DNA of 64,000 nt from Burkholderiales bacterium (GTDB taxonomy: Bacteria; Pseudomonadota; Gammaproteobacteria; Burkholderiales; SG8-41): NCBI GenBank assembly GCA_022841375.1, contig JALHRQ010000001.1, positions 362,892-426,891 on the forward strand. The letters run 5' to 3'. The position numbers and the translations under genes are program-made. Within the stretch, counting starts at the first letter, position 1. Every line of letters begins with the position of its first letter. The notes beneath the pieces were generated by a model that made no database searches, was not told the origin of the DNA, and saw only the letters and a list, made by a program, of their open reading frames with translations. Below, piece after piece: positions 2,699 to 19,787 of the stretch.

Positions 2699-4408
2699 TT
2701 AATTACTAATTGCAGATAAGGCGCGTCGAGAGCCGACTACCGAAAGAAGCGATTTAGCTCGAGTGCTCCCCACATAAAGCAGCTCCCACAACTTTTCATC
2801 GATAACCTCATCACCAATCCACAAAACAACCGCCTGCGCCTCCAAGCCCTTGAATCTTGGCACAGTGTCGAAAAGGATACTTCGTGACTTACCACGCTGC
2901 TCTTCCCCCCACGACAAACCGCCCGTGAGCGAATGGCCACGGATAAGCTCGTAGGCATAACCTTTGGGTCGCTTCGCCACCAGAACCACAATATCTTTCG
3001 GATCCAGTGCGTCTTCAAGTACCCAACGCTCGACACGTTTCCCGATAGCTTCAACTTGTGCATCAACAGAATCACGAGCCAATCGCTCTACATTCGGCCC
3101 GAGGAGCGCAGGTTCATCAATCGGGTCTCCCGAATAGAACTGATAGCCTAATTGATGAATCGGGACCGTATTCCGACAATTTTCAGTCAAGTAATATGGA
3201 TCATCAGCTACCGGCAAATTCCCGTGCCTCGCGTACAGCGATTGGTTTTGGTCAATGAAAATATATAAATGTCCGCTTACCTGATCACTCAATAATTCAT
3301 CAATCGAAAACCAGTATTCATCACTAAAATCTTGCGCCTCATCAATGACAATCGCGTCAAATTTCTCCGGGAGTAGTTCATTTGATAGCGCAAGAGCGTA
3401 GGGCATTTGCACGTTGAAACGATGTTCGTCCCCGCCAGGATAAGCAACTGAAGCTTCCGCCATTAAATTGCGCCCAGTTAAGGCCGCTACAGCCCTGACT
3501 CGTCTATCGCATAGCTGATGAAAACTGCAAACCGTCACTTTAGGTGCATCAGATAGGCTAATCGCAAGAATCTCGGCAAGCGGACGGTTATAACAAAGAA
3601 AGAGAACGGAAAAGCCCTGCTGGGCCAGTTGTCTCGCCTTGTCCACTGCAATTAGTGTCTTACCGGTTCCAGCACCCCCAGCTATAACCGCTCGACGGCG
3701 CCCCCCTATAGTGCGCAAGACCTTGGCCTGCCTATTCGTTAAACGAATTCGTTGTCGCTCCGTATCATCAATTGACGACCGAAGAACGGGACGAACCTCA
3801 ATCGATTTACAAAGAATATCCTCAGCGAGTTTGGCTCCACGCACACCTAACGAGTCGTCTCCGGCCTGCCGCCAAAAGCGGACAACCCTATCAAACCACA
3901 AACCCAATTCGTCGATATCCTTTCTGGCGCCAATAATCGCGCGCGGACGATCACCTGACTCGAGTTCCAGTACACCATTCAAATCCGGAAAAGCAACGGC
4001 ATGACCAATAATTAGTCGCTTCCCCGGCCATCTTGCCCAGTCCGGATGCCCCTTCAACTGATCAAGTAATGCATGGCGTTCGTTGGACGCCTGACGAAAT
4101 GGATCTTTAATTTGGTGTTTATTTCCGGACCTATCAACCGAAAACCACTTCCCGAAGGTCGGGTCGAAGGCAACGCCGCCGCCCTTTACCTCAACAGCGA
4201 ATACTCCAGAGTCCGGGGACAGAATCGTGAAATCCACCTCTCCCTCTCTTACCTTTCCACCCTTGTCGCGATAAATCCAGCCAGAGCTATAAATAACGAC
4301 AACATCATCTGGCAACTGATCTCGACAGGCCTCATAAAATCTTGCCTCAGCTCTTGATCGGAATTGCCCGAGTTGTTCAGCGTCTAAAACAGGGATCATT
4401 CGCGCCAT
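2699..4408 (-). CDS. NERD nuclease-domain / SF1 (UvrD-like) helicase protein
   Basis: N-term NERD core EVDFTILSPDSGVFAVEVKGGG; Walker A AGGAGTGKT; Walker B VIDEAQDF; C-term motif LLYVGSTRAKSLL. Confidence 0.9.
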   Translation of the reverse strand: MARMIPVLDAEQLGQFRSRAEARFYEACRDQLPDDVVVIYSSGWIYRDKGGKVREGEVDFTILSPDSGVFAVEVKGGGVAFDPTFGKWFSVDRSGNKHQIKDPFRQASNERHALLDQLKGHPDWARWPGKRLIIGHAVAFPDLNGVLELESGDRPRAIIGARKDIDELGLWFDRVVRFWRQAGDDSLGVRGAKLAEDILCKSIEVRPVLRSSIDDTERQRIRLTNRQAKVLRTIGGRRRAVIAGGAGTGKTLIAVDKARQLAQQGFSVLFLCYNRPLAEILAISLSDAPKVTVCSFHQLCDRRVRAVAALTGRNLMAEASVAYPGGDEHRFNVQMPYALALSNELLPEKFDAIVIDEAQDFSDEYWFSIDELLSDQVSGHLYIFIDQNQSLYARHGNLPVADDPYYLTENCRNTVPIHQLGYQFYSGDPIDEPALLGPNVERLARDSVDAQVEAIGKRVERWVLEDALDPKDIVVLVAKRPKGYAYELIRGHSLTGGLSWGEEQRGKSRSILFDTVPRFKGLEAQAVVLWIGDEVIDEKLWELLYVGSTRAKSLLSVVGSRRALSAISN

Positions 4409-4410
4409 CG

Positions 4411-7400
4411 CTATTGATCCGATATCTTCATTGTCGCCGGATTAAAACTTAAAAAGCGAGGCTGTTCGCCAGCGAATTGGACATGCAATTTGAAGAAAGC
4501 ACCTTTTCGCTTAGCACTAATGATCTTACCTTTCCCCATATCCGGAACTTCAATCCAAAGTCCAGCCTCGGGTACTTGGGGTAGTTTCGACGCATTAATA
4601 GCAGCAGATTTCCAACCAGAGTCGAATCTGAACTGCTGAGTGAGTTTGTATGGATTCTGCACCAGGTAAACAGCACGCCGCTTCTCATCCTTGACGTACT
4701 CAACAATGCAAAGCCAATAGCGATCCCCTTGCCGTCTTGCTTCATCAAGCTCTGTAGGCGTAAGCGCTACCCCCTCTGCAGTCCATGCGGCGCTTTGGCC
4801 TTTTATTTCAATATATTCGTCCAAACCATCATGTGAAATTGCCTTGATATCAAACCCGGGATTGTTATGCGGCATTTCCTTTAGTGATTTCCATCTTGTC
4901 GACTGAGTATCGATAAAATAATCCACGGCTAGCTTTCCTACCTCAATACGCGCCTTTGCTGCAGCCGAATCCACATCCGCACTGTCATTACGGGAGTCAC
5001 CGGGTGAATCCGCATAACTCAACAATCTGCCACTTCTACTTGGCCTCTGCCTCCCTTTTCCCGGCTTTGACGGGCTTGCACGCTCGCCCTCGATGTTTTG
5101 CTTAGCAAAGTGCCCTGGCGAAAATGGATCATCAGCAGCGTTAAGCAAATTTTCCTGACCAATAACTGACGGTTTGCTGGGCTCTGACTGCGACGCAATT
5201 GACTTAGTCTCTAATTGCTTAGGAGTTCCAAGATTAGCAACTACCTTTTCACTCGATTGCGCCTCCCCACCGGGTATATCAACTACTTCCGGAATGTAGA
5301 CTTGCTCCGTGGACTCCGCGGCCAGGGTCACCCCATCAAAATCCACTATATTTCGAAGTTCGCTCTCACCAGACGGCGAGATGTCGCTCTCGCCCATTAG
5401 GTCAACGTCCGATTCGCCCACAGACACTTTAGTTTCATTTGATCGAGACAACGCCACCTCCATATCCGGAGGCAAGCTGCTGATTTGCTTCAGCTCAAAT
5501 AAATCGCGAATCAAACGTTCGTCCCCCAACGTTATGATTCTGCAAATTAAATCGGACAAGTCTTCCGGGGCATTCAATATATTGCAGATCTCAATGGCAA
5601 TTTGATCATTCGGGGATCGGGCGCCAGCACGCAAAAATATTTGATTCCCCGAAGACGCAATCTCGCGGCTCATAAACCTCGAGACATTCAAAAGCCTGAC
5701 TTCAAGTTTTAATTCCGGAACCTCGAGGATTTCTATTCGCCTTAGGCCTTCAAAAAGCCCCTCCTCAGCGGATCGCTCGAATCTTGAGTGATGTCTCGAA
5801 TAAAATGCGCGGCCAATAAGCGGTACAAGCATACGAATCCGCTCAGTTAGCTCTTTACATAATCTGCCACCATCACAATCAATGACCTTGACGTCAACAG
5901 ATTCGCTCAGAAACTGAATCTCTACGGCCTCCAACAATGGTCTAACTCGCGGAAACTCATCAAAGGGCACCGAAAATATCGATATTTCGGGAACGTCATA
6001 AAAAAGAGCGGTGAACTCAGGCGAGTCATTTGCGAATAGATGAGGGTCTTTAGCAACAAGCTCGTCGTGCTGCGTCAAATAGACAGATTCATTCAAAAAG
6101 GTCTGTATCCAGTCTGGCTTATCCGCAGGTTCACTCCCACCCTTTCCAGACAGATCACGACTTGTTCTCTTGTAAATCGCCAACGCCTCACGCGCACGCT
6201 CCTCTGGCGACTCGATATCTGTTAACCGTTCAATCGCCGAAACAAATCGCTCAGTGGGCAAATCCTTTGGAATACCCAACTTATTTAGAAAAAAGGCCGA
6301 AAAATCGCGATACTGGCCTTGCAGCGGAGGATAAAGTGAATCAAGAAATGGACTGTTCGATCTCCAAGAAACCTCCCCTGGTAATGACCATATCGACTCT
6401 CCACGTTTAACTCGAATCAACTCCTCCTTATAGAAGGCCTCCTCTATTGTGGCCCCCTCATCACCCCAAAGACGTTCAAGATGTCTGTAAATTAAATGTA
6501 GTTGCGTAGTTGTATCGCCACCGACATCTTTCAACTGTCTCAAGCGCTTAATGCACGCAGAGGCGTCCACGCGATGAGTAATCGAACAAAAATCCAACAG
6601 CTCTTCACGAAAAATCTTGGCGTCTAGGTAAATTGGCGAATCGCCGAAAAGCGCTTTTATATCCGCGGACGGATAATAGGTCGCCGAGAGCAGTACTTTC
6701 GCGCGACCTCGCACAGGCGCGTGCATAGATTTGAGTGAAAACGCAAAAGACGTTTCCCGAACAACAAAGCCTCGACCACTTTTAGCGAAGAAAGTCAGGC
6801 TACGCGAATAGCGATCCCAATTACGGTCAATGCACTCTAACGTAGCCTTCCGTACCGTGTTGCGCTCAGAACCCAACAATGCACCAAGTTCGTCCGAACA
6901 CAAATAATTACCCTCAAGTGGCCCAATTAACTTGGGCGCATCTGCCAATCCAAGTTTTTTAAAAAATATCAGCCATGATTGCCTTTCAGCATCCATGTCC
7001 TTAGATTTATCTGACAGATAGTTTGCAGAAACAAGCTTCGATTGCTGAACCGCTTTACCCAACAGACTCTCAATACAAAATTCCGGCCCATACTCTTTGC
7101 TGATATATAAATCTGAAGGACTATCAAATAGCCATGCACCATCAACAGTATCTTTCGTCCCAATCATAATGACGTCGCGAATCACCTGCAGCGCCTTATC
7201 TTCCGATTCACCTTTTGCAGTTGCCAAGGACACATATAGATCGAGCCTAGCCTTGATATAGCGTAGGTGCCCCACAAGAGCCTTATGTTCCGAATGCTTC
7301 CATGCGTCTCCGGCGTGCCGAGGCAGAATATGCGATTTAATTAGATCGTAAGGAACATCCCGCTTCACATTCAGAAAATCAAAGAACTCGCGTGATTTAC

Positions 7401-9039
7401 CCGAAATCTTGAGAACCTGATCCAACAAATCAACATCAATAACAACCAGTTCATGCTCAAATCCAAATCGACGACTGCGACTCAGCGGATAAAAAACTTG
7501 CGTTTTTTCAGGAGAAACCAACTCCCCGCCAGTGGTTGGGATACACGCAACCGCATGAATTCCAGCCTTACGAAGTTCAACCTGATCCAGGTTCGAGAGG
7601 TAGACGTATAACTTGGCCTTCCACTCGATAGCTTGTGCTTTTATCCATTCACCGTGGTTCTTAAAAATATTGACGACATCTTTATAAGTTACCGGGAGCG
7701 CACCAATTCGGCGTAGCAGCTCCTCACTTGCCTTTACTCGTTCATTAACATAATCAAATCCGAATAATTCAAGCGATATAGCAGGTGGAAATAATTCCCT
7801 GAATGGCGGACTACCAAAGCGCAGTTGTTTCGGCAGCAGCCATTGCCCTCCAGCCGATGGCAAACATGCCGACTCCGACAGCAGCTTTACCAGTTGCACA
7901 ACAACCGGTTTAAAGAAGGGATCAACAATATCTGAAGCAGTAGGTAAATATTGCAGATAACTGTATGCCAACTCCTCCCTGCCACGAATCTTTTCAAGCG
8001 CCGAAACAAACGCCGCAGGAATTTGGTCTCGCAGGCGCTTATTCCAGGGACGATCCGAGTGAATATCCTCCCGATTTGAACTTAGAACAAAATCGGCATT
8101 TATAAAAAACTTGAATCCAGCCGGACGCATGGGCAAGAAAGCGAACACCTGCGCATCTTTCTCGGGCTGCGCTGCGCCGGTATCCGACAATGGCAAAGCA
8201 ATGAGAATATCCGTAGTTTTTATATCCGTCCTTTTGTCATCATCCAAACCTGACATATCAACCGAATACGAAACCCTAAAAAAACTGGATAGCGCCACTT
8301 CCTCCTTACCTTCTGGATCGACAGCTGAGGATTCAAGGAATGACAACCCATCTCGGTCCATCCGCGAAAAAAAAACTTTCCGATTCTCAATTTCAAGCTC
8401 AATTTTCCTCAACTTCGTCAAGAAAAGGAGAATATGAGCGTCTATGTCTGCGAAAGTCTGTTCGCCGAAAGTACAACCAGCTTTTGCCGGCAGCAAAATT
8501 GCTGTTTTGCTTTCTGGAACCCCCGGAATCGGTGAACACCAATCCGGGACGACATACCCCAATAGGTTGTCTCCACCGGCGATATTGAATTTGAAGTGAT
8601 AACCGTTCGAGTGTATTTCCGGCGCATCGGATACGGTAAATACTGATTTAAATCCGATCCCTTTCTCGCCAATATATCCTTGCTTTTTGGCCTTAGAACT
8701 CTTACCCACATCACACAAAGCGGTGACATTCTTCGCTTTAAATCCCAGCTCATTATTGACCAGCAATAACTCAGTAGGAGAAACCTTCAACAATAAGGAC
8801 GGCACAACGCCTTTCGCATAATCATTGTCTTCAGCGTTTTGCACGAGCTCCAGAACAAAATGAGTCTGCTTGGAATAAATGTCTTCGGAAAGAATTTTTA
8901 GGGTTGTATTCAGCTTGCGCCGCAAACTATCCACCCTACGACGTTCCTGAGCGGAGGCTCCAGAATCGACACCATATTCTTCGCGTCGGATGAACTCGAT
9001 ATGTTCTCGAGGTGATTTTTCTGGATCGGAGTCGCTCAT
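4411..9039 (-). CDS. very large sacsin-like HATPase (GHKL) protein with C-terminal DUF3883-like (NO VEIN C-terminal) nuclease-fold domain
   Basis: N-term VLELVQNAEDNDY...GYIGEKGIGFKSVF (GHKL/sacsin ATP-binding); C-term NNPGFDIKAISHDGLDEYIEIKGQSAAW (D...ExK); stop is 2 nt from the start of the NERD helicase. Confidence 0.9.
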   Translation of the reverse strand: MSDSDPEKSPREHIEFIRREEYGVDSGASAQERRRVDSLRRKLNTTLKILSEDIYSKQTHFVLELVQNAEDNDYAKGVVPSLLLKVSPTELLLVNNELGFKAKNVTALCDVGKSSKAKKQGYIGEKGIGFKSVFTVSDAPEIHSNGYHFKFNIAGGDNLLGYVVPDWCSPIPGVPESKTAILLPAKAGCTFGEQTFADIDAHILLFLTKLRKIELEIENRKVFFSRMDRDGLSFLESSAVDPEGKEEVALSSFFRVSYSVDMSGLDDDKRTDIKTTDILIALPLSDTGAAQPEKDAQVFAFLPMRPAGFKFFINADFVLSSNREDIHSDRPWNKRLRDQIPAAFVSALEKIRGREELAYSYLQYLPTASDIVDPFFKPVVVQLVKLLSESACLPSAGGQWLLPKQLRFGSPPFRELFPPAISLELFGFDYVNERVKASEELLRRIGALPVTYKDVVNIFKNHGEWIKAQAIEWKAKLYVYLSNLDQVELRKAGIHAVACIPTTGGELVSPEKTQVFYPLSRSRRFGFEHELVVIDVDLLDQVLKISGKSREFFDFLNVKRDVPYDLIKSHILPRHAGDAWKHSEHKALVGHLRYIKARLDLYVSLATAKGESEDKALQVIRDVIMIGTKDTVDGAWLFDSPSDLYISKEYGPEFCIESLLGKAVQQSKLVSANYLSDKSKDMDAERQSWLIFFKKLGLADAPKLIGPLEGNYLCSDELGALLGSERNTVRKATLECIDRNWDRYSRSLTFFAKSGRGFVVRETSFAFSLKSMHAPVRGRAKVLLSATYYPSADIKALFGDSPIYLDAKIFREELLDFCSITHRVDASACIKRLRQLKDVGGDTTTQLHLIYRHLERLWGDEGATIEEAFYKEELIRVKRGESIWSLPGEVSWRSNSPFLDSLYPPLQGQYRDFSAFFLNKLGIPKDLPTERFVSAIERLTDIESPEERAREALAIYKRTSRDLSGKGGSEPADKPDWIQTFLNESVYLTQHDELVAKDPHLFANDSPEFTALFYDVPEISIFSVPFDEFPRVRPLLEAVEIQFLSESVDVKVIDCDGGRLCKELTERIRMLVPLIGRAFYSRHHSRFERSAEEGLFEGLRRIEILEVPELKLEVRLLNVSRFMSREIASSGNQIFLRAGARSPNDQIAIEICNILNAPEDLSDLICRIITLGDERLIRDLFELKQISSLPPDMEVALSRSNETKVSVGESDVDLMGESDISPSGESELRNIVDFDGVTLAAESTEQVYIPEVVDIPGGEAQSSEKVVANLGTPKQLETKSIASQSEPSKPSVIGQENLLNAADDPFSPGHFAKQNIEGERASPSKPGKGRQRPSRSGRLLSYADSPGDSRNDSADVDSAAAKARIEVGKLAVDYFIDTQSTRWKSLKEMPHNNPGFDIKAISHDGLDEYIEIKGQSAAWTAEGVALTPTELDEARRQGDRYWLCIVEYVKDEKRRAVYLVQNPYKLTQQFRFDSGWKSAAINASKLPQVPEAGLWIEVPDMGKGKIISAKRKGAFFKLHVQFAGEQPRFLSFNPATMKISDQ

Positions 9040-17218: not shown

Positions 17219-17590
17219 CTACCGCACCTTAAACACCAACTTCCCCCGCAAATGCCTGCCCTCACTCACCCGATGCGCCGCCTGCGCATCCGCCAGCGCA
17301 TAGGTGGTGATCTGCGGCAGCTTCACCGCACCTGAAGTCACGAGTTGCACGATGCGGTCGAGGTGGGCGCGCTTGCGGCTCGCGTCGGGCTTGAGCGAGG
17401 CCATGTCCTCATAGGGCGGTGTCGGCGCCGGGCCGTTGATGAAGGCGGCGCGGCCGCCGCGGCGCAGTACCTTGAAGGCGTTTTTCGCGACTTCGCCGCC
17501 CACGGTGTCGAACACGGCGTCGCAGTCCTTCACCACCTTTGTGAAGTCTTCCTTGTTGTAATCAATGACGCGGTCCGCGCCGCAGCTGCG
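17219..17590 (-). pseudogene. 3' fragment of NADPH:quinone oxidoreductase, duplicate of the 3' end of the gene at 18792..19787
   Basis: Translation ADRVIDYNKEDFTKVVKDCDAVFDTVGGEVAKNAFKVL...GRHLRGKLVFKVR is nearly identical to the intact gene; no 5' part. Confidence 0.9.
17223..17585. repeat. direct repeat copy 1 (about 360 bp, partner 18799..19160)
   Basis: Near-identical blocks by eye, e.g. ataggtggtgatctgcggcag and accgcacctgaagtcacgagttgcacgatgcggtcgaggtgggcgcgcttgcggctcgcgtc in both. Confidence 0.9.
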
Positions 17591-18791: not shown

Positions 18792-19787
18792 TTATTCACG
18801 CACCTTAAACACCAACTTCCCCCGCAAATGCCGTCCCTCACTCACCCGATGCGCAGCCGCCGCATCCGCCAGCGCATAGGTGGTGATCTGCGGCAGTTTC
18901 ACCGCACCTGAAGTCACGAGTTGCACGATGCGGTCGAGGTGGGCGCGCTTGCGGCTCGCGTCAGGCTTGAGCGAGGCCATGTCTTCATGGGGTGACGTCG
19001 GTGCCGGGCCATTAATGAAAGCAGCGCGACCACCCCGCTTTAGGACCTTGAAGGCGTTTTTCGCGACCTCACCCCCTACGGTGTCGAACACGGCGTCGCA
19101 GTCTTTCACCACCTGGGTGAAATCTTCCTTGTTGTAATCAATCACCTGATCGGCGCCGAGGCTTTTGACATAGTCGACGTTGGCCGCGCTGCAGGTGGTG
19201 ATCACCCGCGCGCCGAGGTGTTTGGCCAGTTGCAATCCAAAGCTCGCCACACCGCCCGCCCCGCCCTGCACCAGTACGGTCTGGCCGGCTTTGACCTGCA
19301 GCGCGTTTTCAATCGAGACAATCGCCGTCAGCCCGATCAGCCCCAGCGCGGCGGCTTCGATGTGGCTTAACTGCGCGGGCTTTTTGGTGACGATGGCGGC
19401 GTTGATCGCCACCTTTTCGGCGTAGCAGCCGTCGTCGCTGGCCTCCACCACGCCGAACACGGCATCACCCGTTTTGATATCCGTAACCCCTTGCCCGACG
19501 GCGCTGACGATGCCGGAGAAATCGCGCCCGGGGATGTGCGGGAATTTTTGGGTGGGTCCGTGGTAGCCCGAGCGGATTTTCCAGTCGGCGCCGTTGACGC
19601 TGGCGGCGTGGATGTCGACGACGACCTGGCCCTCATTGGCGATGGGGTCGGGTTGCTCGCCGTATTGGAGGACTTCGGGGCCTCCGTTTTTTAGGAAATA
19701 GACGGCTTTCATTTTTTCCCTGGTTTCGTTTTTTTTACTTGCCTGGGCCCTACGCTCGGAGGCGTGGGCGAGATGTGTTTGTATCAC
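18792..19787 (-). CDS. NADPH:quinone oxidoreductase / zinc-independent MDR alcohol dehydrogenase
   Basis: MKAVYFLKNGGPEVLQYGEQPDP; AGQTVLVQGGAGGVASFGLQLAKHLGA Rossmann motif. Confidence 0.93.
   Translation of the reverse strand: MIQTHLAHASERRAQASKKNETREKMKAVYFLKNGGPEVLQYGEQPDPIANEGQVVVDIHAASVNGADWKIRSGYHGPTQKFPHIPGRDFSGIVSAVGQGVTDIKTGDAVFGVVEASDDGCYAEKVAINAAIVTKKPAQLSHIEAAALGLIGLTAIVSIENALQVKAGQTVLVQGGAGGVASFGLQLAKHLGARVITTCSAANVDYVKSLGADQVIDYNKEDFTQVVKDCDAVFDTVGGEVAKNAFKVLKRGGRAAFINGPAPTSPHEDMASLKPDASRKRAHLDRIVQLVTSGAVKLPQITTYALADAAAAHRVSEGRHLRGKLVFKVRE
18799..19160. repeat. direct repeat copy 2 (partner 17223..17585)
   Basis: See copy 1; lies within the intact quinone oxidoreductase gene. 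Confidence 0.9.

Follow-up and report, generated by a model that had tools for sequence, protein, structure and literature searches.

Do two adjacent minus-strand genes of a Burkholderiales bacterium, one for a large sacsin-like ATPase and the other for a NERD-SF1 helicase, form a single anti-phage unit, or do they merely share an operon? In the window, by which we mean the whole stretch of 64,000 nucleotides that was analysed, the first gene, here called tmtA (9039..4411, minus strand, ATG start, 1542 aa), encodes a sacsin/GHKL ATPase followed by a long middle region, a DUF3883/NOV_C domain and a Tudor tail, and the helicase gene comes directly behind it (4408..2699, minus strand, ATG start, 569 aa). 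The junction reads TAG-cg-ATG, so that the two reading frames lie 2 nt apart, exact to the base with the initial annotation, which had proposed a coupled pair. With homologues of full length, and with both genes found again elsewhere in the same order, this pairing is conserved and exceeds chance.

Genomic Setting of the Pair

Upstream of tmtA and on the same strand are found hsdM, hsdS, hsdR and a fused DUF262-DUF1524 gene (GmrSD_N+GmrSD_C). The last of these is separated from tmtA by 303 nt, which points to a possible separate promoter for the pair, and a ribosome-site-like run, GGGGAAG, precedes the tmtA ATG. The type I R-M and DUF262 neighbours were already seen in the initial annotation, as was the low GC content of the segment, which amounts to 46-52% across 2-12 kb against about 61% for the remainder of the window. 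The defence setting claimed there is likewise corroborated by a flanking gene, an oxidoreductase (18792-19787), whose 3′ end marks a defence hotspot in genomes of the same genus, with contents that differ by genome (L156-L165) and comprise unrelated type I R-M, MNT-HEPN or ATPase genes. Moreover, both tmtA and the helicase are absent from all five genomes of the same genus that the order sample contains. A hotspot of varying contents and a pair lacking in these relatives support defence cargo rather than housekeeping genes.

The 3′ end of this quinone oxidoreductase gene shows a duplicated fragment of 360 bp (17223-17582 and 18799-19158, 89.4% identity), the two copies of which flank an MNT/HEPN-like pair, PDC-M05A/B (18665-17626). 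On the other side of the island, positions 1370-2368 encode a Bug-type (tripartite tricarboxylate) receptor with about 100 or more paralogues in the genome and the genus; at about 100 paralogues per genome, this left flank is uninformative as an island marker.

Domain Architecture of the Two Proteins

The large protein matches the PADLOC profile for TmtA (PDLC03966) with 797.7 bits, over protein residues 10-1482 and profile positions 3-1647 of 1655, together with the Pfam families SACS (2.5e-10) and NOV_C (1.1e-12) and the NCBIfam model P_loop_sacsin (73 bits). By these profile matches it is a full-length member of the TmtA (Tiamat) family. Its GHKL motifs are intact and invariant among distant relatives, with an N-box, ELVQNAEDN, at residues 64-72 (8824..8850, minus strand), where E64, N68 and D71 do not vary in alignments of 11 and of 9 TmtA proteins, and a G1 box, GYIGEKGIGFKSV, at residues 121-133 (8641..8679, minus strand), with invariant G124, G127, I128, G129, F130 and S132. 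Towards the C-terminus, Pfam places a DUF3883/NOV_C domain of PD-(D/E)xK nuclease-like type at residues 1369-1455 (4675..4935, minus strand), in which the motifs GFDIKA (from residue 1395) and EYIEIKGQ (from 1408) supply D1397, E1411 and K1413, the last two being invariant in 7 aligned proteins.

The AlphaFold model made for residues 1330-1542 is of moderate confidence (pLDDT 76.5, pTM 0.61) and predicts an alpha-beta-beta-beta-alpha-beta nuclease-like core followed by a five-strand barrel. The predicted DUF3883 core resembles Hjc Holliday-junction resolvases in a weak Foldseek match (TM of about 0.6 on the target, E 5e-3) and also matches SPARDA complexes. A search of solved structures with the full TmtA gave no matches, and the AlphaFold model of residues 1-1195 was too weak for a fold call (pLDDT 68.8, pTM 0.43), with only low-scoring Hsp90/GHKL-type matches among noise.

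The helicase matches along its full length (residues 1-558, 226 bits) the PADLOC profile RTasNERD-Hel (PDLC03813), and its Pfam domains are NERD (E 1.2e-8), UvrD-helicase and UvrD_C_2. The NERD nuclease domain, at residues 19-126 (4031..4354, minus strand), carries the motif GEVDF...VEVKGG, which supplies D59, E73 and K75, and further contains Q106. The SF1 motor comprises a Walker A sequence, GGAGTGKT, at residues 244-251 (3656..3679, minus strand; G244, A246, G247, G249, K250 and T251 invariant), a motif II, DEAQD, at residues 356-360 (3329..3343, minus strand; D356, E357, Q359 and D360 invariant), and the invariant motif IV/VI residues R412, N413, T414 and R550. Altogether, the NERD D and ExK residues and a complete set of motor motifs are intact and remain invariant across 10 relatives. 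With significant matches to NOV_C/DUF3883 and to NERD, the view of the initial annotation that each protein joins an ATP-driven domain to a nuclease-like motif proved well founded.

A Tudor Tail That Tracks the Helicase

A feature that had escaped the initial annotation is a C-terminal domain of the PcrA/UvrD Tudor type, which spans residues ~1484-1542 of TmtA (4414..4590, minus strand) and is found in helicase-linked TmtA proteins. Compared with the PDB, a profile of the tail region matches only UvrD/PcrA C-termini (best E 3.4e-4), and the Pfam family PcrA_UvrD_tudor (PF21196) matches 4 of 8 family members (best E 0.0054), the tail of the window alone not being matched. The barrel of the TmtA model is closest in Foldseek to 5dma (TMt 0.78), 9dqs (TMt 0.80-0.82) and also 7egs, all of them UvrD/PcrA Tudor domains, the latter solved in complex with RNA polymerase. 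The tail of one family member also matches CarD_TRCF_RID. The tail is thus a PcrA/UvrD Tudor domain, an assignment that for the window's own protein is a prediction from the family profile and from the AlphaFold model of moderate confidence.

The tail, of ~55 residues, ends all eight helicase-linked TmtA proteins but only one of 11 unlinked ones (Fisher p 1.2e-4), and this single exception, from Microvirga (L068), is sister of a linked protein. Five more TmtA-like proteins that are unlinked and have their C-terminus complete, from the sample of the window's own order, also miss it, which brings the tailless to 15 of 16 unlinked proteins. In that sample of 399 genomes, the three tailed tmtA genes are exactly the three accompanied by the helicase, and the other TmtA-like loci inspected have neither. 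The DUF3883 domain alone was also considered as the part travelling with the helicase, as hinted by phmmer scores, and was set aside after a domain tree that lacked resolution and left the linked ones ungrouped, so that this role is assigned to the Tudor tail only. By Pfam, no Tudor domain was found on the DISARM-type partners of sister helicases, and none was detected in the SF1 helicase of the pair, which ends soon after its last motor motif. With the Tudor domain on TmtA and none detected in its SF1 partner, the pair seems to split between two proteins what PcrA holds in one.

Recurrence and Phylogeny

Relatives of the helicase were gathered blind to their neighbours from plasmids, phages, IMG/VR, the phylum, the class of G627 and the window's own order, and their flanks were read afterwards; the exceptions are two pairs (G200 and G242) that were found by searching the class with TmtA. 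In the eight distinct loci that score highest against the window's helicase (1295 to 409 bits, all those above 400), the helicase gene lies directly behind a same-strand tmtA or its remnant, so that the neighbourhood check proposed in the initial annotation speaks for the pair. These loci are the window itself, G1377 and G1265 from its own order, G200 and G242 from the class, the Sphingomonas naphthae plasmid NZ_CP117413.1, and the IMG/VR contigs L092 and L093; with L092 and L100 being near-identical, they amount to about seven independent pairs. The two genes are separated by 1-2 nt in three loci and overlap in others, the plasmid showing again a 2-nt gap. Among the TmtA partners, one is reduced to a remnant and two have broken reading frames (L075 and L092). 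In L091 (9458-11040), tmtA has been cut to 109 aa beside two transposase-like ORFs and the helicase is intact. Scans of IMG/VR with TmtA proteins gave no matches.

In a tree of 44 helicases, the eight linked to TmtA form one clade with a support of 100/100, and none of 500 label shuffles was as clustered, a clustering that owes partly to close relatives sharing gene order. The linked TmtA proteins, unlike their helicases, do not form a single clade: four changes are forced on the TmtA tree, where those of the window and of G1377 cluster with one set of solo TmtA and the remaining linked proteins with another. The idea that both genes descended vertically together was rejected on these grounds. 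Solo TmtA is common (L001-L005, L068, L070-L072, L167-L169), and since most TmtA proteins lack the helicase, TmtA function in general does not depend on it.

Farther from the window, the gene upstream of NERD-helicases scoring 145 to 270 bits is usually drmB accompanied by drmA, as in DISARM, and at 125 bits it is druE, as in Druantia. Because the closest helicases lie behind tmtA, the next behind drmA-drmB and one behind druE, the protein seems to be a component that several defence systems use, with one of its lineages bound to Tiamat. Below about 90 bits almost all NERD-helicases are without a defence partner; such distant forms are widespread in the same order (L107, L110, L111, L112, L120, L129-L131, L134, L136, L137) and are possibly a housekeeping branch. 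A NERD-helicase with 30% identity at 98% coverage also occurs in L166 (MT835574.1), an unverified record of a faecal phage.

Relation to Known Systems

Tiamat was reportedly described by Millman et al. 2022 as a single-gene system, and we know of no established mode of action for it. The window's protein shares with it the full TmtA length, from the sacsin/GHKL ATPase N-terminus to the DUF3883/NOV_C C-terminus, but its gene directly precedes a NERD-SF1 helicase gene and it bears a Tudor tail, rare in unlinked TmtA. The claim that this two-gene composition had no name therefore holds in part, given that no description of the pair was found, whereas the large ATPase is a full-length TmtA and the helicase family is already a PADLOC model. 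Likewise, the proposed defence-system HMM check led to a catalogued family for each protein, full length in both cases. In this regard, the pairing, the Tudor tail and the Tiamat-tied helicase clade may be new here, for which their absence from the literature searched, mostly non-subscription papers, is weak evidence.

The helicase belongs to the same family as RTasNERD-Hel of PADLOC, a model named for its association with defence reverse transcriptases, but its partner here is TmtA, and no reverse transcriptase gene (DRT) was found among the scanned island proteins, from the helicase to hsdM. In DISARM, sister NERD-helicases lie directly behind drmB (L064-L066, L081, L097 and L103), five of these plasmids and genomes (L064, L065, L066, L081 and L103) having a DISARM-like four-gene unit with, in order, a GajB/UvrD-like helicase, DrmA, DrmB and the NERD-helicase. 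A possible further DISARM variant is seen in L116 (5756-10806), where the NERD-helicase overlaps a DUF1232 protein of 1109 aa followed by DrmA-DrmB. In Druantia, a more distant NERD-helicase follows DruE (2094 aa) after about 14 nt (L082, 3045-10957). Neither DrmA nor DrmB is among the matches listed for eight scanned island proteins or in the comparison of neighbouring ORFs, and the PADLOC scan of the island proteins and that same comparison showed DruE to be absent from the window.

Gabija (GajA-GajB) and Hachiman (HamA-HamB) also complex a nuclease with a helicase-like subunit (PMC10681800, PMC12278908), a design that is alike in outline but built from different protein families. The helicase aligns with GajB profiles over short segments only (at most 34.8 bits), and in PADLOC neither protein of the pair has a GajA-, HamA- or HamB-type match. 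Plant NO VEIN and animal sacsin have sacsin ATPase and NOV_C domains in common with TmtA, but neither is operonic, and to our knowledge neither has a helicase partner or a Tudor tail. In plant metagenomes, matches to Tiamat fell on plant sequences (PMC12409356).

A Proposed Two-Subunit Tiamat and Its Alternatives

From its sequence and relatives, the pair is likely an anti-phage unit of two genes, and our preference, by a slight balance of probability, is for a Tiamat anti-phage system made of two subunits. In such a system TmtA, whose GHKL ATPase is of the Hsp90/sacsin type and precedes a long middle region, would sense a sign of infection and undergo an ATP-driven change of shape, its C-terminal Hjc-like PD-(D/E)xK domain would cut or grip branched or damaged DNA, and the Tudor tail would recruit the NERD-SF1 helicase, either directly or at a transcribing RNA polymerase, which would then unwind and degrade the DNA. 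Complex formation, sensing and the order of action are what we infer, as is whether damage would be confined to phage DNA or also reach that of the host. A more daring proposal, which we regard as rather doubtful, is a complex resembling a split UvrD/PcrA, with the SF1 motor kept separate and the Tudor domain placed on the TmtA sensor, where an Hsp90-like ATPase would steer a helicase-nuclease onto transcribed phage DNA, and where the tail would have been passed, along with the helicase, from one TmtA backbone to another, distantly related one.

A plain single-gene Tiamat might instead stand beside an independent NERD-helicase defence gene, the operon serving shared expression only and the two proteins acting separately. 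Solo TmtA is indeed common, and NERD-helicases exist without TmtA, behind DrmA/DrmB, behind DruE or alone; but the eight closest helicases are all behind tmtA and are monophyletic though their TmtA partners are not, and the tail tracks the helicase, all of which makes separate action fairly improbable. In another view, the tail would not dock the helicase and would serve to tether TmtA to RNA polymerase, or else to modified DNA or protein, in a unit that would act on transcribed phage DNA with the helicase as a secondary element; by itself, this leaves the association of tail and helicase unexplained. This tether, which we consider unlikely, draws on the closest folds being RNA-polymerase-binding UvrD/PcrA Tudor domains, 7egs included, and on the CarD_TRCF_RID match of one family member. 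Moreover, the PcrA Tudor domain binds RNA polymerase and other partners, as shown for PcrA only (PMC5397179, PMC8318588), and TUDOR domains are carried by BREX and BREX-related helicases (PMC12839542). Finally, a helicase, a nuclease and a Tudor domain together recall UvrD/PcrA repair modules, and distant NERD-helicases are widespread, mostly without a defence partner in the order. However, a role in DNA repair or housekeeping is highly improbable for a pair that is absent from same-genus genomes and sits next to R-M genes in a low-GC stretch of a defence hotspot, and whose close relatives belong to defence operons or are carried by plasmids and IMG/VR contigs.

As a two-subunit Tiamat, the pair would represent a lineage of this family with a dedicated helicase-nuclease and a partner-binding domain, which offers handles in the Tudor surface, the catalytic residues of NERD and DUF3883, and the Walker A motif of the helicase. 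One effector-like part, the NERD-helicase, is moreover reused behind three different defence cores, those of Tiamat, DISARM and Druantia.
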